A stretch of DNA of 64,000 nucleotides from NCBI RefSeq assembly GCF_019801965.1, contig NZ_JAHVIA010000006.1:62001-126000 (forward strand), read 5' to 3'. A program made the position numbers and the translations under genes. Source of the stretch: Salipiger bermudensis. GTDB taxonomy: Bacteria > Pseudomonadota > Alphaproteobacteria > Rhodobacterales > Rhodobacteraceae. Shown in pieces: positions 41,712 through 64,000 of this stretch (the first letter of the stretch is position 1; each line of letters starts with the position of its first letter). Below the pieces are notes generated by a model. It searched no databases. It worked only from the letters and a program-made list of their open reading frames with translations, and had not been told where the DNA came from.

Positions 41712-42233
41712 TCACGCCGCCGCCGCCTCGCGGATCCGCGCCAGGCACCAGTCGGTGACCGCGTCCGGCTCGGAGGGCAGAGGCTCGGCCAGCTCCTCGG
41801 CAAACGCAAGGAAGCCCGGCAGGTTGGTCTGGTTTACCGCCACCAGAACCGGCACCCCGGCCCCGATCGCCTCCGCGATCACCGGGCGAAAGCCGCGCCC
41901 GTCGAGCTCCTGCTTGCCGAACTTGTTGACCAGCAGCAGCGCCGCGCCCTTGTCGAGACCGGCGCTGACCAGCCCCACCACCCGCTCGAGCCCCTGCGGA
42001 TCGAGCCGGCAGCCGCGCGACAGCGCGCCGAGATCCTGGGAAATGCGCACCACGTCGGTGCCGGTCAGAACCTCGAGATCCATGTGGCACTTGGTGTCGG
42101 GCCCGGTCTCGATATTGTGCTGCACCGCGCCCGCAAGCGGCAGCCCATCGGCGCGCAAACGCTGCGCCACCTCGCGCATCAGGCCGTCGACCTCGCCGCG
42201 GCCAAGGCCCGTCACGTATCCAAGCATGCCCAT
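41712..42233 (-). CDS. DUF2478 protein linked to molybdenum genes
   Basis: A 173-residue cytoplasmic protein resembling DUF2478, a family with a nucleotide-binding-like fold found beside molybdate transport or molybdenum cofactor genes. Visible features are GYVTGLGRGEVDGLMREVAQRL at the N-terminus, in place of a true P-loop, LSRGCRLDPQGLERVV in the middle, and ALLLVNKFGKQELDGRGFRPVIAEAIGAGVPVLVAVN toward the C-terminus, reminiscent of the THEP1/P-loop core without a full Walker A. It is divergent from fdhD with 73 bases between starts. Its function is unknown; a role in molybdenum handling is inferred from neighbours. Confidence 0.75.
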   Translation of the reverse strand: MGMLGYVTGLGRGEVDGLMREVAQRLRADGLPLAGAVQHNIETGPDTKCHMDLEVLTGTDVVRISQDLGALSRGCRLDPQGLERVVGLVSAGLDKGAALLLVNKFGKQELDGRGFRPVIAEAIGAGVPVLVAVNQTNLPGFLAFAEELAEPLPSEPDAVTDWCLARIREAAAA

Positions 42234-42306: not shown

Positions 42307-43170
42307 ATGCCAGACTTGCCGCTGCTCCCCACCCCCACCGATCCGCGTCTCACCCGGCGCATCGCGGGCACCGACCAGACCGGCGCTCCGACCGAGATCG
42401 CGGTGGTCGAGGAGCGCCCGCTGACGATCTATCTCAACCGGCAGGAAATCGTCACCGCGATGACCATCGGCGACCATCCCGAGTATCTGGCGCTGGGGTT
42501 CCTGCGCAATCAGGGCATGCTGCGCGCCGATGACGTGGTGACCGGCGTCGATTACGACGACGAGATCGAGACCGTGGTGGTGCGCACCGCACGCGAGACC
42601 TCCTACGAGGAGAAGGTGCAGAAGAAGACCCGTACCTCGGGCTGCGCCGTGGGCACGGTCTTCGGCGACATGATGGAGGGGCTCGAGGGGCTCACCCTGC
42701 CGGACGCGCAGGTGCGCAGCTCGTGGCTCTATGCGCTTGCCAAGGAAATCAACACCACGCCTTCGCTCTATCTCGAGGCCGGCGCGATCCACGGCACCGT
42801 GCTGTGCCAAGGCGACAAACCCTTGGTCTACATGGAGGATGTCGGACGGCATAATGCGGTCGACAAGATCTCGGGCTTCATGTTTCGCCACGGGATCGGA
42901 GCGGAGGACAAGATCCTCTACACCACCGGCCGGCTGACCTCGGAGATGGTGATCAAAACCGCGCTTATGGGAATCCCGGTGCTCGCCTCGCGCTCGGGCT
43001 TCACCGCATGGGGCGTCGAGATCGCCCGGCAGGTGGGGCTGACGCTGATCGGCCGGATGCGCGGCCAGCGCTTCGTCTGCCTCTCGGGTGAGGAGCGGCT
43101 CTTGCGCGATGTCGACCCGGCGAGCATCCCCGACGAAGACCGCAAATCGCGCCGGAAGGCCGCGGAATGA
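42307..43170 (+). CDS. fdhD: Formate dehydrogenase accessory sulfurtransferase
   Basis: A 287-residue FdhD protein that passes sulfur to the molybdenum cofactor for insertion into formate dehydrogenase. Key blocks are IYLNRQEIVTAMTIGDHPEYLALGFLRNQGML, TRTSGCAVGTVFGD with the sulfur-carrying Cys at about residue 113 (one Cys in the loop rather than CxxC), YMEDVGRHNAVDKISG, TTGRLTSEMVIKTALMGIPVLASRSGFTAWGVEIARQ. ATG 42307 lies 16 bases after AGGAGG, a rather long spacing; ATG 42265 upstream is an alternative that would add 14 residues. It overlaps mobA by ATGA. It heads the fdhD-mobA-mobB-moeA operon. Confidence 0.93.
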   Translation: MPDLPLLPTPTDPRLTRRIAGTDQTGAPTEIAVVEERPLTIYLNRQEIVTAMTIGDHPEYLALGFLRNQGMLRADDVVTGVDYDDEIETVVVRTARETSYEEKVQKKTRTSGCAVGTVFGDMMEGLEGLTLPDAQVRSSWLYALAKEINTTPSLYLEAGAIHGTVLCQGDKPLVYMEDVGRHNAVDKISGFMFRHGIGAEDKILYTTGRLTSEMVIKTALMGIPVLASRSGFTAWGVEIARQVGLTLIGRMRGQRFVCLSGEERLLRDVDPASIPDEDRKSRRKAAE

Positions 43171-43817
43171 GCCGGGCCGTGCAACAGCCGCTCGGGGTCA
43201 TCCTCGCGGGCGGGCTCGCCACGCGCATGGGTGGCGGCGACAAGGGCTTGCTGGAGATCGGCGGCGCGCCGCTCTTGCAGCGGGTGATCGACCGGCTGGC
43301 GCCGCAGGTGGCCGAGCTGGCGCTCAACGCCAATGGTGACGCGGCGCGCTTCGAGAGCTACGGCCTGCCGGTGCTGCCCGACAGCATCGCGGGCTTTCCG
43401 GGGCCGCTCGCGGGCGTGCTCGCCGGTCTCGACTGGGCAGCCGAGCAGGGCGCCGACAGCATCGTCACCGTCGCCGCCGACACGCCGTTCTTCCCCTGCG
43501 ATCTGGTGCCGCACCTGCTGCTCGCCGCGGAAGGTGCGCCGCATCCGCTGGCGCTGGCCTGCACGCCGCGCTCGGGCGACGAGGCGCTGAAATCCGGCGG
43601 CGGCAAGCGGATCAACCGCCACCCCACCTTCGGCCTCTGGCCGGTGGCGCTGGCCGACGACCTGCGCGCCGCGCTGCAGGACGGGCTGCGCAAGGTCGTG
43701 CTCTGGACCGACCGCCACGGCGCCGGCGAGGCGCTGTTCCCCGCCGAGCCCTTCGACCCGTTCTTCAACGTCAACACGCCCGAGGATCTCGACCGGGCGC
43801 GCGAGCTCGCCGCATGA
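43167..43817 (+). CDS. mobA: Molybdenum cofactor guanylyltransferase
   Basis: A 216-residue nucleotidyltransferase that attaches GMP to Mo-molybdopterin to make the guanine dinucleotide cofactor used by DMSO-reductase-family enzymes such as formate dehydrogenase. The nucleotide-binding signature GVILAGGLATRMGGGDKGLLEIGG is at residues 10-33, with VTVAADTPFFPCDLV (Mg2+-binding Asp) near 100 and FNVNTPEDLDRA at the C-terminus. It overlaps both fdhD (ATGA) and mobB (ATGA), so all are translated together. Confidence 0.93.
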   Translation: MSRAVQQPLGVILAGGLATRMGGGDKGLLEIGGAPLLQRVIDRLAPQVAELALNANGDAARFESYGLPVLPDSIAGFPGPLAGVLAGLDWAAEQGADSIVTVAADTPFFPCDLVPHLLLAAEGAPHPLALACTPRSGDEALKSGGGKRINRHPTFGLWPVALADDLRAALQDGLRKVVLWTDRHGAGEALFPAEPFDPFFNVNTPEDLDRARELAA

Positions 43818-44305
43818 GGATCTACGGCGTCACCGGCAGCAAGAACTGCGGCAAGACCGGCCTGATGGAGCGGCTGGTGTCCGAGATAAGCGCGCGCGGC
43901 TTCACCGTCTCGACGATCAAGCACGCCCATCACAGCACCGATGTCGACCAGCCCGGCCGCGACAGCTTTCGCCACCGCGAGGCCGGCGCCCGGGAGGTGC
44001 TGCTCGCCTCGCCCCACCGCTGGGCCTTGATGCACGAACTGCGCGATGCGCCCGAGCCGCCGCTCTCCGAGCTGCTCGGCAAGCTCTCGCCCGTCGATCT
44101 GATCATGATCGAGGGCTACAAGCGTGAGGCCCATCCCAAGATCGAGGCGCACCGCGCCGAGACCGGCAAGCCATTGCTCTCACCCGACAATCCGAGCATC
44201 CGCGCCGTCGCCGCCGACAGCCTGATCGAGACCGCCCTGCCCTGCTTCGATCTCGACGACACCACCGCCATCGCCGATTTCATCCTGCGCGAGGTGGGGC
44301 TGTGA
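43814..44305 (+). CDS. mobB: Molybdopterin-guanine dinucleotide biosynthesis adaptor MobB
   Basis: A 163-residue P-loop GTP-binding protein that aids MobA. The Walker A is GVTGSKNCGKTGLMERLV (residues 5-22), followed by STIKHAHHSTDVDQPGRDSFRHREAGA and the family's DLIMIEGYKREAHPKIEAHR. Overlaps of four bases with mobA and moeA make it part of a single translational unit. Confidence 0.92.
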   Translation: MRIYGVTGSKNCGKTGLMERLVSEISARGFTVSTIKHAHHSTDVDQPGRDSFRHREAGAREVLLASPHRWALMHELRDAPEPPLSELLGKLSPVDLIMIEGYKREAHPKIEAHRAETGKPLLSPDNPSIRAVAADSLIETALPCFDLDDTTAIADFILREVGL

Positions 44306-46464
44306 GCTTCGACACCATCGCCGTGATCGACTGGTCCGGAGCCTCGTCGCCTTCGCCTGCGAAGCCCTCGAAAGACGCGATCTGGATCGGCGTCGCGCGC
44401 CGGGGCGCGGCAGAGGTCGAGACCAGCTACCACCGCACCCGCCACGACGCCTCCGAGACCCTCGCCGCGCTCTTCGAAGCCGAGCGCGCCGCCGGGCGTC
44501 GGGTGCTGGCCGGCTTCGACTTCCCCTTCGGCTACCCGCGCGGCTTTGCGAAAGCCGTCTGCGGCACACCCGACCCCCTGGCGCTCTGGCGCGCCCTGAG
44601 CGACCGCATCGAAGACACCCCCGACAACGCCAACAACCGTTTCGACGTCGCCGCAGCGCTCAACGATCTCTTCCCCGGCATCGGCCCGTTCTGGGGCTGC
44701 CCGGAGAGCCTCGACGACCCGCGCCTGCCGAGCAAGGGCACCCTGCGCGACGGCCACGGCATGACCGAGCGCCGCGCCTGCGACCGGGCCAAGGGCGCGC
44801 AGCCGGTCTGGAAGCTCTTCACCACCGGCTCGGTCGGCTCGCAGGCGCTGCTCGGCATCGCCCGACTGCAATCGCTGCGCGACCGCTTCGGCGCCGATCT
44901 CGCCGTGCGCCCGTTCGAGCGCCACGATACGCCCATCACCCTCGTCGAGCTCTTCCCATCGCTGATCGCGCCCACCGTGGCGGCGCTGACGGAAGAGAAC
45001 GAGATCAAGGACCGCGCCCAGGTCCGCGTGCTCGCCGGCGCGCTGGCCCAGCTCGAGCCGCGCCAGCTTGACGCCATGACCCGCGAGGGCGATGCCGAGG
45101 AGGGCTGGATCCTCGGGCTGGGCCACGAGACCCTGCTCGAAGCCGCCGCCCGCGCCGCCTTCCCTCCGCCCAACGCCTTGAAAGACATGTCCGACTCCGA
45201 CCTGATGCCGCCCCGCCTCCGCGATGATTGCTTTGCCATGCCGCAAGGCGTTGCCTGGGTGCCGGTCGACGAAGCGCTGGCCAAGCTGCGCGATGCGCTG
45301 CACCCGGTTACGGGCCTCGAGACCCTGCCGACCTCGCGCGCCGCGGGCCGGGTGCTGGCGGCGGATGTGGCGGCGAAACGCTCGAACCCGCCGATGCCCA
45401 ACTCGGCGGTGGATGGCTACGGCTTTGCCCACGCGGCCACCGGCGATGGCATCCAGCGCCTGCCGCTGGTGGCGGGCCGCGCCGCCGCCGGCCAGCCCTA
45501 CCCGCACGCCGTCTCCAAGGGCCACGCCATCCGCATCCTGACCGGAGCGATCCTGCCCGAGGGGGTCGACACCGTGGTGCTCGAGGAAGACACCAATACC
45601 GACGGCACCACCGTGGTCTTCGACGGACCCGCGAAGCCCCGCGCCAACACCCGCAAGGATGGCGAGGACGTGGCCGCCGGCGCGCCTGCTCTGCCGAAGG
45701 GCCGCCGCCTGCGCGCCCCCGATCTGGCGCTCGCCTCGGCGCTCGGCATCAGTGAGCTGCCGGTGCACCGCCCGCTGCGCGTTGGCGTGCTCTCGACCGG
45801 CGACGAGATCATCGCCTCTCCCGACCGCCCCGCCGAACCGCACCAGATCTGGGACGCCAACCGCCCCATGCTGCTGGCGCTGGCCTCGGGCTGGCAGTGC
45901 GAGGCGGTGGATCTGGGCCACGTGCCCGACGACCGCGCGCAGATCGCCGCGCGGCTCGCCGAAGGCGCGCGCAAGGCCGATGTCATCCTGACCTCCGGCG
46001 GCGCCTCGGCGGGCGACGAGGATCACGTCTCGGCCCTGCTGCGCGAGCGCGGCACGCTGTCGAGCTGGCGCATCGCGCTGAAGCCGGGACGGCCTCTGGC
46101 GCTGGCGATGTGGGAGGGCACCCCGGTCTTCGGCCTGCCCGGCAACCCGGTGGCGGCGCTGGTCTGCGCGCTGATCTTCGCCCGCCCCGCCCTGTCGCTG
46201 ATGTCGGGCGCGGGCTGGAGCACGCCGCGGGGCTTCACCGTCCCCGCCGCCTTCTCCAAGCGCAAGAAGCCGGGCCGGCGCGAGTACCTGCGGGCACGGT
46301 TGACGGAAGACGGCCACGCGGAGGTCTTCGGGTCGGAAGGCTCGGGGCGGATCAGCGGGCTATCGTGGGCCGACGGGCTGGTCGAGCTGCCCGACGGCGC
46401 CATGGAGATCGCCCCCGGCTCGCCGGTGCGCTACATCCCCTACGCCTCCTTCGGGCTGGTCTGA
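44302..46464 (+). CDS. MoeA-type molybdopterin molybdotransferase fused to an N-terminal DUF429-like domain
   Basis: A 720-residue fusion. Residues about 315-720 are a full MoeA, which inserts molybdenum into adenylylated molybdopterin: PMPNSAVDGYGF (about 365-376), RILTGAILPEGVDTVVLEED, VLSTGDEII, LTSGGASAGDEDHV (about 563-576) and VFGLPGNPVAALV. Residues 1-300 are a separate domain beginning FDTIAVIDWSGASSPSP with GFDFPFGYP at 71-79; the IDWSG start suggests an RNase-H-like/DUF429-type fold, but this is uncertain. Typical MoeA has about 400 residues, so the extension is unusual. The start is GTG at 44302, overlapping the mobB stop as GTGA. I leave the gene symbol blank because the N-terminal activity is unknown. 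Confidence 0.87.
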   Translation: MSFDTIAVIDWSGASSPSPAKPSKDAIWIGVARRGAAEVETSYHRTRHDASETLAALFEAERAAGRRVLAGFDFPFGYPRGFAKAVCGTPDPLALWRALSDRIEDTPDNANNRFDVAAALNDLFPGIGPFWGCPESLDDPRLPSKGTLRDGHGMTERRACDRAKGAQPVWKLFTTGSVGSQALLGIARLQSLRDRFGADLAVRPFERHDTPITLVELFPSLIAPTVAALTEENEIKDRAQVRVLAGALAQLEPRQLDAMTREGDAEEGWILGLGHETLLEAAARAAFPPPNALKDMSDSDLMPPRLRDDCFAMPQGVAWVPVDEALAKLRDALHPVTGLETLPTSRAAGRVLAADVAAKRSNPPMPNSAVDGYGFAHAATGDGIQRLPLVAGRAAAGQPYPHAVSKGHAIRILTGAILPEGVDTVVLEEDTNTDGTTVVFDGPAKPRANTRKDGEDVAAGAPALPKGRRLRAPDLALASALGISELPVHRPLRVGVLSTGDEIIASPDRPAEPHQIWDANRPMLLALASGWQCEAVDLGHVPDDRAQIAARLAEGARKADVILTSGGASAGDEDHVSALLRERGTLSSWRIALKPGRPLALAMWEGTPVFGLPGNPVAALVCALIFARPALSLMSGAGWSTPRGFTVPAAFSKRKKPGRREYLRARLTEDGHAEVFGSEGSGRISGLSWADGLVELPDGAMEIAPGSPVRYIPYASFGLV

Positions 46465-59053: not shown

Positions 59054-61000
59054 TCAGGCCGCGAATGGCAGCCAGACCGTGAACACCGCGCCGCCCTCGG
59101 GCGAGTTGGCGGCCGAGATGATCCCGCCCGCGCCCTGCACGATGCTCTGCGAGATCGACAGGCCCAGCCCGGTGCCCTCGCCGCGCCGCGTGGTGAAGAA
59201 CGGGTCGAACAGCGAGGCCAGCGCCTCCTCGGCAATTCCCGGTCCGCTGTCACGCACGGTGAGCGCCACGCCCACGATGCCCTCGCGCGTCTCTTCCGCG
59301 AGGCTCAGCCAGAGATGGCCACGCCCGCCCATCGCCTGCGCCGCGTTGAGGATCAGGTTGATCGCCACCTGCTGCATCTCGCCCGCATCGATCGCCACCG
59401 GCGGCAGCTCCGGCAGCTCTGTCTCCACCTCGATGGCGCCCTTGCTCAGCGCATGGTCTACCAGCATCAGCGCATCCTCGACCACCGGCGCCAGCGCCAC
59501 AGTCTCGGCGCAGTCGGAATACTCGGAAGGTTGCGCGAATTTCAGCAGCTTGCCGACGATCGCCTCCATCCGCATCACCTGCCGATCGATCAGAGAAAGC
59601 TCGGTCTCGACCCGGGCGGCCTCCTCGCCAAGCTCCATGCGGATGACATCGACATTGCCCTGAATGACGGCCATCGGGTTGTTGATCTCATGCGCCACGC
59701 CGGCGGTGATCTCGCCGATGGCGGCGAGCTTCTCGCTCATCACCAGCTGGCGGAAGGTCTGCTCCAGCTTGGCATTGGCCTCGCGCAGCTCGGCGGTACG
59801 GGTGTCGACCCGGTCTTCCAGCTCCTCGGCCCAGGCGCGCAGCTTGAGGTCGCGGTCCTGCACCTGGTCGAGCAGGTCATCGAGATGGCCCGCGACCTGT
59901 CCGATCTCGTCGCGCGCGCCGACCGGGCCGATGCGCGCCGCGAGATTGCCGCGCCCGACCCGGCGCATGGTCTGGGTCATGCGCTCGAGCGGCGCGAAGA
60001 TGCCCTTGGCCAGCCAAAGAAACACTGGCGCGGAAAGCAGCAGCACGCCCGCGAAGGCCGCCATCATCCACAGGTAGGCATCGCGCTTGGCCTGCGCGAA
60101 GGGCGCCTCGAGCATCCCCACATAGAGCATCCCGACCCGCTGCCCGAAGCTGTCGGAGAGCGGCAGATAGCCCGAGATGTACCAGTCGTTGACCACGAAG
60201 GCGCGGTCGAGCCATGTCTGGCCCTCGTCGAGCACCGCCTGCCGCACCGAGGCTGAGACCCGCGTGCCGAGCGCCCGCACATCCTCGAAGAGCCGCACGT
60301 TGGTCGAGATGCGCACGTCGTCGAGAAACAGCGTCGCGGTGCCCTGCCGTGTGCCGCCGGTGACCGGGTTGAGATAGACCAGCGCGTTGATCGCGTCGAT
60401 GAAGCCGAGATTGCCGTTGAGCAGGATGCCCCCCACCAGCACGCCCTCATGGCCCGGCAGGCGCACCGGGCTCGCCGCGTGCACGACCATGCCGCGATCC
60501 TCGACCCGCCGGTCGGTGGGCACCGCGGCGGTGGTCTCGATCAGGTCGATGCGGGCGCGGGTCTCGAGATTGCCCGGCAGCGCCGCCAAGACCTCGGGCG
60601 GGAAGATGTCGATGGCGGTCTCGGCGCGCCCCCGGCGGGCGGCGTCGATCACCGGCCAGCGGCTGCCGATGCCGTCGCTCGGAGCCGATGGCAGGTAATA
60701 GAGGAAATCCAGACCCAGCTCGGTGCGCTTGGCGTCAAGAAAGCGCGGATCGGGGCCGTTGCCACCGAAGGCGGTGTCGAAGGCCAGCGACTCCGCCACC
60801 CCGGTCAGTTCCTCGCCAGTGCGGGTCATCAGCTGCGAGAGATATTGCTCGGCGATGCGCAGGTCGCTCTGCACGTTGGCCGCCAGAACCTTGTCGTAAT
60901 CGCCGGTCCAACGGGTCATGCCGAGCAAGAGCAGCAACGGCATCAACAGAACCAGCGGCGCCAGCGCAAGGATCAGCAGGCGCAGGCGAACGGTGGTCAT
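59054..61000 (-). CDS. Membrane sensor histidine kinase with extracytoplasmic Cache-like domain
   Basis: A 648-residue kinase. Transmembrane segments are at about residues 6-28 and 312-332. Between them is a large periplasmic sensor domain (about 280 residues, consistent with a Cache-type fold). A HAMP domain (about 332-385), a coiled coil, a dimerisation domain with the phospho-accepting His437 in EITAGVAHEINNPMAVIQGN, and an ATPase domain with NLILNAAQAMGG (N box), RDSGPGIA (G1), FFTTRRGEGTGLGLSIS (F/G2) follow. No receiver domain or response regulator is adjacent, so its partner is not known. ATG 61000 is chosen; ATG 61021 would add seven residues. icd lies about 155 bases downstream. Confidence 0.88.
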   Translation of the reverse strand: MTTVRLRLLILALAPLVLLMPLLLLLGMTRWTGDYDKVLAANVQSDLRIAEQYLSQLMTRTGEELTGVAESLAFDTAFGGNGPDPRFLDAKRTELGLDFLYYLPSAPSDGIGSRWPVIDAARRGRAETAIDIFPPEVLAALPGNLETRARIDLIETTAAVPTDRRVEDRGMVVHAASPVRLPGHEGVLVGGILLNGNLGFIDAINALVYLNPVTGGTRQGTATLFLDDVRISTNVRLFEDVRALGTRVSASVRQAVLDEGQTWLDRAFVVNDWYISGYLPLSDSFGQRVGMLYVGMLEAPFAQAKRDAYLWMMAAFAGVLLLSAPVFLWLAKGIFAPLERMTQTMRRVGRGNLAARIGPVGARDEIGQVAGHLDDLLDQVQDRDLKLRAWAEELEDRVDTRTAELREANAKLEQTFRQLVMSEKLAAIGEITAGVAHEINNPMAVIQGNVDVIRMELGEEAARVETELSLIDRQVMRMEAIVGKLLKFAQPSEYSDCAETVALAPVVEDALMLVDHALSKGAIEVETELPELPPVAIDAGEMQQVAINLILNAAQAMGGRGHLWLSLAEETREGIVGVALTVRDSGPGIAEEALASLFDPFFTTRRGEGTGLGLSISQSIVQGAGGIISAANSPEGGAVFTVWLPFAA

Positions 61001-61064
61001 GGGGCGGGTCCCGAAGCTCATCGGGGCCGAGCGTAGCACGGCCCCGGCGCGTGGTCAGCGCGGA

Positions 61065-61559
61065 TCAGTGATGATGCGGCTCGTCGTCGAGCGAGCCGTG
61101 AATGGCGAACTGGTCGAGCCCCGCGTCGCTGGACTCGATGACCCGGTAGGCCTCGCGCACGCCGGACTCGCTGAGCTCCCGCGCCACGGTCAGCAGCGTG
61201 TTGGGCGCGTGGTCGTCGCAGAGCGCGACCATCTGGGCCAGCTCTTCCTGCGCCACCGGCCGTGCGGCCTCGGTGGAGGGCGCGCCGTAATAGGTCACGA
61301 AATGCTCGGCCAGCCGGTCGGTCAGCGCCTCGAGCTCGGCGGGCTCCAGCGCGGTCACGGCGACAAAGGTCACCCGGCCGAATGTCTCGAGCCCGAGCCA
61401 GCCGTTGGAGAAAGCCTGACGCGGCTTGCCGGTCAGGTCGCCCTCGGTCCAGTTGGAGAACTCGAACCCGCCCGAGATGCACCACTCGCCGGTGCGGGCC
61501 GGCGAGGCATAGACGCGCATGTCGCTCTCGTCGAAATGGATGGCGCGGGCGAGCTTCAT
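61065..61559 (-). CDS. DUF6505-type protein of the formate dehydrogenase region
   Basis: A 164-residue protein that begins MKLARAIHFDESDMRVYASPARTGEWCISGGFEF and carries FSNWTEGDLTGKPRQAFSNGWLGLETFGRVTFVAV and an alpha-helical C-terminal half ending in His residues (DDEPHHH). I recognise it as DUF6505, a family common in Rhodobacteraceae near formate-dehydrogenase maturation genes. Its function is unknown. It overlaps the upstream biotin/lipoate-ligase-like gene by ATGA and is the last gene of the cluster that enters from the right edge. The His tail might bind a metal, but that is speculation. Confidence 0.75.
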   Translation of the reverse strand: MKLARAIHFDESDMRVYASPARTGEWCISGGFEFSNWTEGDLTGKPRQAFSNGWLGLETFGRVTFVAVTALEPAELEALTDRLAEHFVTYYGAPSTEAARPVAQEELAQMVALCDDHAPNTLLTVARELSESGVREAYRVIESSDAGLDQFAIHGSLDDEPHHH

Positions 61560-62266
61560 GGGGCGGGCTCCAGAACGGTTGTCAGCGGGATGAGATGGGT
61601 GGTCTCGCCATCGCGCAGCAGCATGCCGAAGGCCTCGTCGACGCCGAGGAAGGTGCCGGTGAGGCCGTCGCGGGAGATCTCCTCCCCGATGTCCTGCGCC
61701 AGACCGCGCCACTCGGAATGCAGGGCGCGGTTGCCTTCCTCGTCCCAGCGGTTGATCCAGTTGAGGCTGTGCCGTGCCCAGGCCTCGATCAGCGCCGGCG
61801 GCGAGACCTCTGCGCAGCCCTCGGCATAGAGCGAGGTCTGGTCGGGCGTGTCGCCGGGGCGGTCGCTGGCGGGGATCAGCGGCAAGGTGAAGCCAATGAC
61901 CAGCCAGTCGGGAACGGCGTCGGGATCGGTGACCGAGGCCATGGCGCGGAAGCGCCCGCAGGCGGCACCGTTGACCCGGATGCCGCCATCCCAGTCGAGA
62001 TGTACCGCGACCTCGGGCGGCGCCATCACGCCAAGCGCGTTCTGGAAGCCCACGCCGCAGAGCGGCAGCATCGCCATCGCCTGCGCGAGCGGCACCTCGG
62101 GGGCAAAGACCAGCGCCGCCTGCGCCACGCTGGCGTTGACGCGATAGGCCACCAGCCCCGCGTCGCAGCCCAGCAGCGCGCGCTGGCAGGCATGGTCGAA
62201 GGCGTCGGTCGAGACCTCCTCGCCCCAGAGCAGCGGCGGAAACGCCAGTGCCTCGGCCTCGCTCAT
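61556..62266 (-). CDS. Biotin/lipoate protein ligase-family protein with DUF4444-like C-terminus
   Basis: A 236-residue protein. The N-terminal two thirds resemble the biotin/lipoate protein ligase fold (FPPLLWGEEVSTDAFDHACQRALLGCDAGLVAYR, DWDGGIRVNGAACGRFRAMAS), although the catalytic GRGRxGR of BirA is not evident. The C-terminal third, beginning near WINRWDEEGNRALHSEWRGL and containing GTFLGVDEAFGMLLRDGETTHLIPL, matches the DUF4444-type segment. It overlaps mrp (ATGA) upstream and the DUF6505 gene downstream. Its acceptor protein is unknown, and it may not be a true ligase. Confidence 0.78.
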   Translation of the reverse strand: MSEAEALAFPPLLWGEEVSTDAFDHACQRALLGCDAGLVAYRVNASVAQAALVFAPEVPLAQAMAMLPLCGVGFQNALGVMAPPEVAVHLDWDGGIRVNGAACGRFRAMASVTDPDAVPDWLVIGFTLPLIPASDRPGDTPDQTSLYAEGCAEVSPPALIEAWARHSLNWINRWDEEGNRALHSEWRGLAQDIGEEISRDGLTGTFLGVDEAFGMLLRDGETTHLIPLTTVLEPAP

Positions 62267-63327
62267 GCCACCCCCTTCGCCACCAGCGCCGCGGCGACGT
62301 CGTGAAACGCCTTGGCCTGCCCGCTGTCGGGCTGGCTTACCACGATGGGCGCGCCGCCGTCGGAGGCCAGCCGGATCTGCAGGTCGAGCGGGATCTCGGC
62401 CAGCAGCGGCACGCCGAGCTTGGCCGCCTCGGAGGCGACACCGCCATGGCCGAAGACATGCTCCTCGTGGCCGCAGGCCGAGCAGATATGCGTCGACATG
62501 TTCTCGATCATGCCAAGCAACGGCACGTTGAGCTGCTTGAACATGTCGATGCCCTTGCGCGCATCCAGAAGCGCCACGTCCTGCGGCGTCGAGACCACGA
62601 TGGCGCCGTCGACCTGCGCCTTCTGGCTCAGCGTCATCTGCACGTCGCCGGTGCCGGGCGGAAGATCGACCAGCAGCACGTCGAGCGCGCCCCATTGCAC
62701 CTGCATCATCATCTGCTGCAGCGCGCCCATCAGCATCGGCCCGCGCCAGACCACCGCCTGATCATCGTTGGTCATCAGGCCGATTGACATCATGGTGACG
62801 CCGTGGTTGCGCAGCGGCAGGATGGTCTTGCCATCCGGGCTCGCCGGGCGGCCCGAGACGCCAAGCATCCGCGGCTGGCTCGGCCCGTAGACATCGGCAT
62901 CGAGCAGACCGACGCGCCGGCCCTGCTGCGCCAGCGCGCAGGCGAGGTTCGACGACACGGTCGACTTGCCCACCCCGCCCTTGCCGCTGGCAATGGCGAT
63001 GATGTGGTTGACGCCGGGGATCTTCTGCGGCCCCTGAGGCTCGGCCTTGCGGGCGCGCAGCTCGGGCGGCGCTTTCTCGGTGTGGCCGGTCATCACGATC
63101 GACACCGACGCGACGCCCTCGGCGGCCTTCAGCGCCGCCTCGGCCTCGTCCTTCACCTTGGTGTAGGCGGTGCTGGCGCTCGGCGGGATCTCCATGACGA
63201 AACGCACCGCGCCCGCCTCGTCGACGTTGAGCGCGCGGACCACGCCGCTCGAAAGGATATCGCCGCCCGCGACCGGGTCGGCGATGCTCTTCAGGACGGC
63301 CTGAACCGCCTCTCTGCTGGCTGGCAA
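62263..63327 (-). CDS. mrp: Iron-sulfur carrier ATPase Mrp/ApbC
   Basis: A 354-residue MRP/NBP35-family P-loop ATPase that carries iron-sulfur clusters to target proteins. An N-terminal DUF59/MIP18-like domain (residues 1-90) is followed by the deviant Walker A IAIASGKGGVGKSTVSSNLA (about 110-129). VDLPPGTGDVQMTLSQ, VSTPQDVALLDARKGIDMFKQLNVPLLGMIENMSTHICSACGHEEHVFGHGG then follow, with the CxxC that holds a bridging 4Fe-4S cluster. In this cluster it probably serves assembly of the multi-cluster formate dehydrogenase. It is 3 bases after the DUF6494 gene. Confidence 0.92.
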   Translation of the reverse strand: MPASREAVQAVLKSIADPVAGGDILSSGVVRALNVDEAGAVRFVMEIPPSASTAYTKVKDEAEAALKAAEGVASVSIVMTGHTEKAPPELRARKAEPQGPQKIPGVNHIIAIASGKGGVGKSTVSSNLACALAQQGRRVGLLDADVYGPSQPRMLGVSGRPASPDGKTILPLRNHGVTMMSIGLMTNDDQAVVWRGPMLMGALQQMMMQVQWGALDVLLVDLPPGTGDVQMTLSQKAQVDGAIVVSTPQDVALLDARKGIDMFKQLNVPLLGMIENMSTHICSACGHEEHVFGHGGVASEAAKLGVPLLAEIPLDLQIRLASDGGAPIVVSQPDSGQAKAFHDVAAALVAKGVA

Positions 63328-63330
63328 GGT

Positions 63331-63522
63331 TTACTCCTGTCCCTTGATCTCGCCGTCGACCTCATGGGTCAGACCAAGCTCTTCAATGGTCACCACCGCC
63401 TTGACCTTGAAGGTCTTGCCGGCGGTGTCGGCGCCGCGCATGGCCTCCTCGATGGCCTGCTGCGAGGTGACGCCCACCTGCTTGAGGAACTTGCGCATGG
63501 ACATGTTGAAATCGTCGCTCAT
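63331..63522 (-). CDS. Small DUF6494-type protein
   Basis: A 63-residue protein, MSDDFNMSMRKFLKQVGVTS at the N-terminus followed by QQAIEEAMRGADTAGKTFKVKAV and VTIEELGLTHEVDGEIKGQE. I recognise the DUF6494 family, found in Rhodobacteraceae and relatives beside mrp and formate dehydrogenase genes. The function is unknown. A GGGAGG ribosome site (revcomp of CCTCCC at 63526-63531) precedes the ATG. Its tight spacing to mrp (3 bases) and conserved order support it being a real gene despite its size. Confidence 0.82.
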   Translation of the reverse strand: MSDDFNMSMRKFLKQVGVTSQQAIEEAMRGADTAGKTFKVKAVVTIEELGLTHEVDGEIKGQE

Positions 63523-63545
63523 CGTGGCCTCCCTGTCTGGCGCGC

Positions 63546-64000
63546 TCAGTGGTCGCGCCGCTTGCTGAGATAATCGTCGGTGGTGCGCGGCCGCCTCGGC
63601 TCGCCCACCGCGAAGGGGTTGTTGTCGGAATGATACTGCGCGTTGACGCGGCAGTCGTCACACATCTGGATCATCCGCAGCTTGTCGCCGTCGAACATCG
63701 GATGGGCCTGAAGCTTTTCGGTGATCCGGTCAATGGTCGATTTCACCCCGAAGAGCGTACCGCATTCGACGCAAGGGAACGGCTCTTCCTCGTTCAGCAC
63801 TCGCTGGTCGAAGGCCTCCTCGGTCAGCAAGAGCCGCGGCTCGTAGGCGATGGCGTCCTCGGGGCAGACATTGGCGCAGAGCCCGCATTGCAGGCAGGCG
63901 TCTTCCTGGAAGCGCAGCTGCGGCAGGTCGGGGTTGTCGCCAAGCGCGCCCGAAGGGCAGAGCGAGACGCAGGAGAGACAGAGCGTGCAGGCGTCCTGGT
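63546..64000 (-). CDS. 4Fe-4S ferredoxin-type protein, C-terminal part (cut by window edge)
   Basis: The frame is open to the right edge, so only the C-terminal 150 residues are here. Reading leftward from the edge, two ferredoxin-type motifs appear: CTLCLSCVSLCP and CLQCGLCANVCP, each a CxxCxxCxxxCP, so two 4Fe-4S clusters are expected. These are followed by a pair of CxxC sites (CVECG and CDDC) that could bind a further metal, then NPFAVGEPRRPRTTDDYLSKRRDH. Proteins of this kind precede DUF6494 and mrp in Rhodobacteraceae formate dehydrogenase clusters. Its length and N-terminal domains cannot be seen. Confidence 0.85.
   Translation of the reverse strand, partial: QDACTLCLSCVSLCPSGALGDNPDLPQLRFQEDACLQCGLCANVCPEDAIAYEPRLLLTEEAFDQRVLNEEEPFPCVECGTLFGVKSTIDRITEKLQAHPMFDGDKLRMIQMCDDCRVNAQYHSDNNPFAVGEPRRPRTTDDYLSKRRDH

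Follow-up and report, generated by a model that had tools for sequence, protein, structure and literature searches.

The gene at 44302-46464 of the window, the whole 64,000-nucleotide stretch of Salipiger bermudensis DNA analysed here, encodes a molybdenum cofactor enzyme homologue, MoeA, preceded by a separate N-terminal domain, here termed X. Taken together, the data are best explained by two features: an operon for tungsten cofactor assembly, fdhD-mobA-mobB-X/moeA; and a hydrolase, X, tethered to its last enzyme. This combined explanation is given an even chance. The MoeA half of the gene product is probably a tungsten insertase, judging from two signature residues and from co-occurrence with the tungstate-binding protein TupA and with formate dehydrogenases.

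A tungsten-type MoeA in the fdhD-mobA-mobB-X/moeA operon

The fusion gene closes a run of four genes, all on the + strand and with overlapping ends:

44302-46464, + strand: X/moeA fusion gene; GTG start, TGA stop, 720 amino acids
44302..45177, + strand: X domain, residues 1-292; predicted RNase H-like accessory domain (AlphaFold2, 77-row alignment, NF011066 match)
45178..45231, + strand: predicted disordered linker, residues 293-310; predicted local distance difference test (pLDDT) <50 in the full-length model
45232..46464, + strand: MoeA part, residues 311-720 and the stop; assigned by Pfam, with the tungsten-type signature R597 and A618
43814..44305, + strand: mobB; PF03205 161.6 bits, TIGR00176 above cut-off
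43167..43817, + strand: mobA; TIGR02665 193.2 bits (cut-off 151.85)
42307..43170, + strand: fdhD; PF02634 247.9 bits

A first-pass annotation of this DNA had described the same open reading frame as a complete MoeA at the end of fdhD-mobA-mobB, with its start fixed by a GTGA overlap, and both statements are borne out. The GTG start lies within the GTGA shared with the mobB stop, and 4-base overlaps also join fdhD to mobA and mobA to mobB. The three Pfam domains of the fusion protein are confined to residues 320-713 and score above their curated cut-offs (MoeA_N, PF03453, 130.3 bits; MoCF_biosynth, PF00994, 99.2 bits; MoeA_C, PF03454, 57.4 bits). By all three, the MoeA half is a complete MoeA. 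The extra domain, put at about 300 residues in that annotation, is indeed separate and N-terminal; its size is closer to 292 residues plus the linker. Codon use had been called equal in the two halves and measures so: GC content at third codon positions (GC3) is 0.917 in X and 0.923 in MoeA, and the mean log relative codon frequency is -0.717 and -0.762, with the remaining operon genes alike. Read in its two wrong frames, X falls to -1.70 and -1.99. Because its codon use matches that of MoeA and the operon and is lost out of frame, X is a real coding sequence and no artefact of start choice.

The assignment to tungsten rests on a characterised relative. According to the available part of a 2026 study of Methylorubrum extorquens (PMC13197769), MoeA1, MobB and FdhD are needed for its tungsten formate dehydrogenase, R291 and A312 of MoeA1 favour tungstate, and moeA1-mobB-tupBCA are clustered. 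R597 and A618 of the window protein correspond to the two Methylorubrum residues reported there, at a spacing of 21 in both proteins. Across 118 MoeA rows read, all those from mobB operons, with or without X, carry KPGR and GNPVA, and hence R and A (78/78, a number that includes the window's own gene, with one gene entered three times). In the remaining rows, the two positions hold K (40/40) and S (39/40). The exception is a third MoeA of genome G287 (locus L163, G287:C21:22000-24400), with an intermediate KPGK alongside GNPVA and a position not beside MobB.

The distribution of the two MoeA types was compared across 36 genomes of the same family. An ordinary MoeA lies away from the operon in 36/36 and is the sole type in 11. 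TupA is found in 25/36, exactly those with the tungsten-type MoeA (25 both, 11 neither; Fisher p 1.7e-9, which overstates the evidence, kinship being uncorrected). All TupA scores lie below the NCBIfam cut-off of 400 bits, and TupA is still the sole NCBIfam family for the three proteins scanned. Genome G267 has MobB and lacks both the tungsten-type MoeA and TupA. Tungsten insertion by the window's fusion protein is very likely. The first-pass annotation had taken this MoeA for the enzyme that inserts molybdenum; the enzyme is complete, as it held, and is of the tungsten-linked type, the ordinary molybdenum MoeA being a second gene elsewhere.

The operon MoeA could instead be a second molybdenum insertase, R and A being lineage markers of the MobB-associated paralogue. 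The genomes with this paralogue are all related and its residues are fixed (78/78), so that residue and ancestry are inseparable, and the Methylorubrum mutagenesis, in the part of the paper available, was done with endogenous MoeA2 present (PMC13197769). Yet TupA and the paralogue agree in 36/36 genomes, even within one split genus (g7), where G287 has both and G160 neither, and tupBCA adjoins the operon in several relatives. A second molybdenum insertase is considered improbable.

The formate dehydrogenases (FDHs) of these genomes offer candidate clients for the tungsten cofactor. At least one of the FDH1 and FDH3 beta subunits is present in 25/25 tungsten-type genomes (FDH1-type fused beta in 21/25, FDH3 beta in 17/25), and either one in 0/11 of the others. 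The genome to which the window belongs has an FDH3 operon and tupBCA on the same contig, 22-33 kb downstream of the fusion gene, and the FDH3-type enzyme is likely the tungsten client of the fdhD-mobA-mobB-X/moeA operon. FDH-N alpha (TIGR01553) was considered as a client and rejected: it occurs in 1/36 genomes, and that genome is without TupA. This FDH-N alpha gene (L224, G160:C11:1351034-1354072) contains one in-frame TGA, probably selenocysteine.

The FDH3 region spans 59060-63995 of the window and 1867-8962 of L237 (C6, the window's own contig). There, a run of genes (Cache-domain, DUF6505, DUF4444, Mrp, DUF6494, 4Fe-4S) leads into the FDH3-type operon, which includes DUF3305, DUF3306 and TorD and is followed by tupBCA.

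Two further genes border the operon:

41712..42233, - strand: DUF2478 gene, divergent from the fdhD operon; PF10649 169.4 bits
46472..46699, - strand: TusA-like sulfurtransferase, 75 amino acids; translation and Alloyangia comparison

Several relatives have the DUF2478 gene placed between tupBCA and fdhD (tupBCA just beyond it in L034, L058 and L067), and the gene may belong to tungsten handling. The TusA-like protein is 79% identical to the product of an Alloyangia gene annotated as TusA family. On plasmid records of one Alloyangia and one Salipiger, a TusA gene and a formate dehydrogenase of two subunits come after the operon; in the plasmid records examined, the MoeA is labelled merely 'gephyrin-like molybdotransferase Glp'.

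Predicted fold and sequence relatives of X

Pfam returns no family for X, even when E values up to 1 are admitted. Positions 166-447 of NCBIfam NF011066 match its residues 2-279 with 274.8 bits. An AlphaFold2 model of X alone, built from a 77-row alignment, has a mean pLDDT of 95.3 and a predicted template modelling score (pTM) of 0.91. In the full-length model (overall pTM 0.56), X and MoeA form two confident globular parts on either side of the linker. The modelled elements of X are strands 5-10, 27-33 and 39-44, helix 47-63 and strand 68-72, then helix 178-199, strand 212-216 and helices 219-229 and 236-250, an order of strands and helices that is RNase H-like. Between them, from strand 4 to the next core helix (residues 73 to 177), lies a conserved insert of ~100 residues.

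Four acidic residues are identical in 77/77 rows: D10, at the end of strand 1; D73, just after strand 4; E216, at the end of strand 5; and D237, at the start of the late core helix. The motifs IDWSGASS and GFDFPFGYP begin at residues 9 and 71. Also invariant (77/77) are S12, D25, R47, D105, R113, N121, W131, R158, Q181, Q240 and E267. Fold prediction, the check proposed in the first-pass annotation, has in this way returned a separate globular domain with RNase H-like strand order and invariant acidic residues. X belongs to an uncharacterised alphaproteobacterial family with a predicted RNase H-like fold, whose putative metal-binding carboxylate site is probably intact.

The best VIA-align match of the model is phage RuvC (4ktw; Z 7.0 over 128 residues, 3.4 Å), followed by Spt6, Tex (2oce, Z 6.8) and Cas9 among others. 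Because these Z scores lie below 8, membership of X in the RNase H-like superfamily is graded likely, not proven. A sequence search of X against solved structures gave nothing meaningful, and a phage origin of X was rejected, with 0 matches in 50,697 phage records.

The annotation's alternative label for this fold, DUF429, fared less well than its RNase H-like label. A 2014 survey (PMC3985635, consulted in part) assigns DUF429 itself to the RNase H-like superfamily and predicts nuclease activity for it, and X has a similar order of motifs: a strand 1 Asp, (I/F)D-x-P-x-G-x-P in strand 4, E-x-(H/Y)-P, and a late-helix Asp. Against membership of X in DUF429, the family profile PF04250 matches neither the fusion protein at E up to 1, nor anything in the whole genome, nor seven distant relatives, for which E values up to 10 were admitted. 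By hhalign, X and a set of 12 DUF429 sequences matched with a probability of 0.6% (from small alignments); the values for two broader comparisons were 2.5% and 4.9%. X is rather unlikely to be a divergent DUF429 protein and is not filed under DUF429, its likeness being limited, at sequence level, to motifs.

The same method ties X clearly to another set of stand-alone 'IDWSG' proteins, with an hhalign probability of 99.6%. This family (L131-L142, L149, L150) comprises proteins of ~300 amino acids with a DD-x(3)-DA motif, from other families of the class; two that were scanned gave no RNase H-like Pfam match.

Partners, distribution and possible role of X

X was surveyed with one genome per species across 84,980 species. 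Pattern matching yielded 501 relatives, of which the best 80 were examined. Among these 80, X is fused to MoeA in 45, to MobB (as MobB-X) in 2, to CobH (precorrin-8X methylmutase) in 3, and to a hydantoinase-like protein in 2. It is a gene of its own with mobA, mobB and moeA in 7, with mobA and mobB at the end of a contig in 1, beside mobA only in 12, within a cobalamin cluster in 1, and without any such neighbour in 7. The X-MoeA fusion is in this way far from limited to one genome, and stand-alone copies next to molybdenum genes, which the first-pass annotation had suggested surveying, do exist. Neither of the two outcomes that the annotation had named as refuting, the lack of a separate globular domain and a fusion restricted to a single genome, was observed. 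Pfam confirmed the partner in the four fusions scanned (two CobH (CbiC), one hydantoinase, one MobB). Its occurrence with CobH, and by itself, means that X is not confined to molybdenum or tungsten cofactors.

Individual loci illustrate these arrangements. X sits on the N-terminus of CobH in cobalamin clusters at L071, L077, L078 and L116, which belong to two branches far apart on the X tree, and is a separate gene inside such clusters at L059 and L121. The hydantoinase/oxoprolinase-like fusions come from two alphaproteobacterial metagenome-assembled genome records (L073 3033-6047, L076 5992-9006). A riboswitch or other RNA as the link between the molybdenum and cobalamin contexts was rejected: Rfam at its gathering threshold gave no match in the window or 7 loci.

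In an even draw of the phylum, 56/397 genomes match X at E 0.001 or better; 40 of these 56 matches are stronger than 1e-50, and 40/40 of them come from the same class as the window. In a tree built from 93 X domains, drawn unrooted by a quick method, the X-MoeA label must have changed 10 times or more, the mobA-only group nests in the larger operon group, and copies linked to cobalamin fall on either side of the deepest split drawn.

The model and these associations suggest that X is an autonomous RNase H-fold hydrolase, probably catalytic, that was recruited to cofactor operons. In the combined explanation, the X/MoeA gene would supply the last step-enzyme of the tungsten cofactor operon, and assembly would involve: insertion of tungstate into molybdopterin by the MoeA half on a MoeA-MobB platform; subsequent addition of GMP by MobA; and sulfuration and delivery by FdhD of the tungsten bis-molybdopterin guanine dinucleotide cofactor (W-bis-MGD) to formate dehydrogenases. 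Alongside this assembly line, X would act as a divalent-metal-dependent phosphoester hydrolase on a nucleotide-bearing substrate, for example a guanylylated pterin that is faulty or in excess, or a by-product nucleotide. The fusion would serve only to tether X.

Catalysis is preferred over mere scaffolding because the carboxylates are invariant, mobA-X copies included, and is judged somewhat more probable than not. Metal-dependent phosphoester chemistry is suggested by the RNase H fold. A cofactor or nucleotide substrate is plausible because X adjoins, or is fused to, proteins of nucleotide-bearing cofactors; as a specific claim about X, it is doubtful.

Two other roles for X were weighed. In the first, X would have no catalytic activity and would serve as a scaffold or binding module, keeping MobB and MoeA together at the hand-over of the metal cofactor. 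Consistent with this, X occupies the position between MobB and MoeA, with a fusion to either one, MoeA1 is reported to interact with MobB in Methylorubrum (available part of PMC13197769), and two genomes without X, G197 (L183) and G271 (L189), carry direct, in-frame fusions of MobB to tungsten-type MoeA. A pure scaffold, however, would not need the candidate catalytic carboxylates, which are kept in mobA-X loci as elsewhere, and the sampled mobA-X genomes contain neither MobB nor tungsten-type MoeA. A scaffold is unlikely. A further MobB-MoeA fusion, suggested in G287 by the length of the open reading frame, was rejected since its upstream part is out of frame.

The main rival holds that X is an ordinary RNase H-fold nuclease of nucleic acids, without a role in cofactor assembly, whose place in molybdenum, tungsten and cobalamin operons reflects a historical insertion, its fusions having arisen from overlapping genes. 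The structures that align closely with X are nucleases and nucleic-acid proteins, other alphaproteobacterial families contain stand-alone copies that lack cofactor neighbours, X is retained in loci without a neighbouring mobA, and its molybdenum-operon context may have been gained once (the tree shows 5 changes in total). X is nonetheless fused to two members of one pathway, MoeA and MobB, and to CobH in separate branches, and it is kept in the mobA cluster in 20/21 X-bearing family genomes. An ordinary nuclease is the less expected outcome, with some real weight.

Several further observations count against a tungsten operon with a tethered hydrolase. X is found in 15/25 tungsten-type genomes, in one of them (G287) far from the operon; it is absent in 10/25 and present in 6/11 genomes without a tungsten-type operon. 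In five of these six (G164, G179, G199, G259, G355), there is no MobB, the only MoeA is ordinary, and X directly follows mobA. X itself does not track tungsten; as a tungsten-specific part it was rejected on its presence in 6/11 TupA-negative genomes, and because it is missing from 10/25 tungsten-type genomes, it is dispensable for tungsten insertion. Distant X genes in other families stand alone near unrelated genes, without molybdenum or cobalamin neighbours. Even inside the mobA-X clade, L011, L026 and L029 have no mobA next door; at L026, the apparent last residues of mobA are still present. On the structural side, Foldseek of X against the PDB gave no match at E 0.001 or better, and VIA-align Z scores under 8, such as the best for X (about 7), can reflect a common arrangement. 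For tungsten, FDH1 is missing from the window's own genome, and the 36 comparison genomes are mutually related, so their co-occurrence counts are not independent.

A broader proposal is that X founds an RNase H-fold class acting on nucleotide-bearing cofactors and not on nucleic acids. Alongside MobA, MobB and MoeA, it would trim or proofread the guanylyl tail of molybdenum or tungsten bis-MGD, and its CobH-fused sister would do the equivalent in the cobalamin pathway. This is held to be quite improbable.

Relation to known systems

Already known are the X domain, recorded as unknown in NF011066, and tungsten-type MoeA-MobB systems. The literature searched (open-licence PMC papers) yielded no description of the X-MoeA fusion. 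As far as that search shows, the new elements are: the RNase H-like assignment; the recurrence of X in fusions with MoeA, MobB and CobH; and the attribution of the fdhD-mobA-mobB-X/moeA operon in Rhodobacteraceae to tungsten. If correct, marine Rhodobacteraceae would carry a tungsten cofactor line whose MoeA can be flagged by two residues and TupA, and X would be a testable step, with candidate catalytic residues named, common to molybdenum/tungsten and cobalamin cofactor operons. Formate dehydrogenases that use tungsten attract interest as catalysts for CO2 reduction, and the available part of the Methylorubrum study states that biosynthesis of their cofactor is a barrier (PMC13197769).

The closest functional parallel is the MoeA1-MobB pathway of M. 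extorquens (PMC13197769). As far as the available part of that paper goes, both systems have a second, MobB-associated MoeA with R and A, tupBCA nearby, and a formate dehydrogenase client; it makes no mention of X, which is fused to MoeA here. The paper contains neither the phrase 'domain of unknown' nor 'unknown function' (0 occurrences). The MoeA-PBP fusions (PMC11733289) are similar in that a MoeA paralogue with an extra domain is linked to the tungstate transporter TupA. There, the extra domain is C-terminal and has a periplasmic-binding-protein fold, whereas X is N-terminal and predicted to be RNase H-like.

For X itself, DUF429 (PF04250) offers a similar order of short motifs and the same predicted superfamily, but no significant sequence or profile match. 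The RuvC/YqgF/Tex branch, source of the best VIA alignments, has the core strand order and carboxylate positions modelled for X; X differs in its conserved insert after strand 4. The nearest recorded family is NF011066/PRK14495 (MobB/unknown domain fusion protein), whose positions 166-447 are the same domain as X and whose MobB-X architecture is seen at the Cereibacter and Luteovulum loci. In the window, by contrast, X is fused to MoeA and MobB is separate, so that the whole-protein cut-off of 596 bits is not reached.

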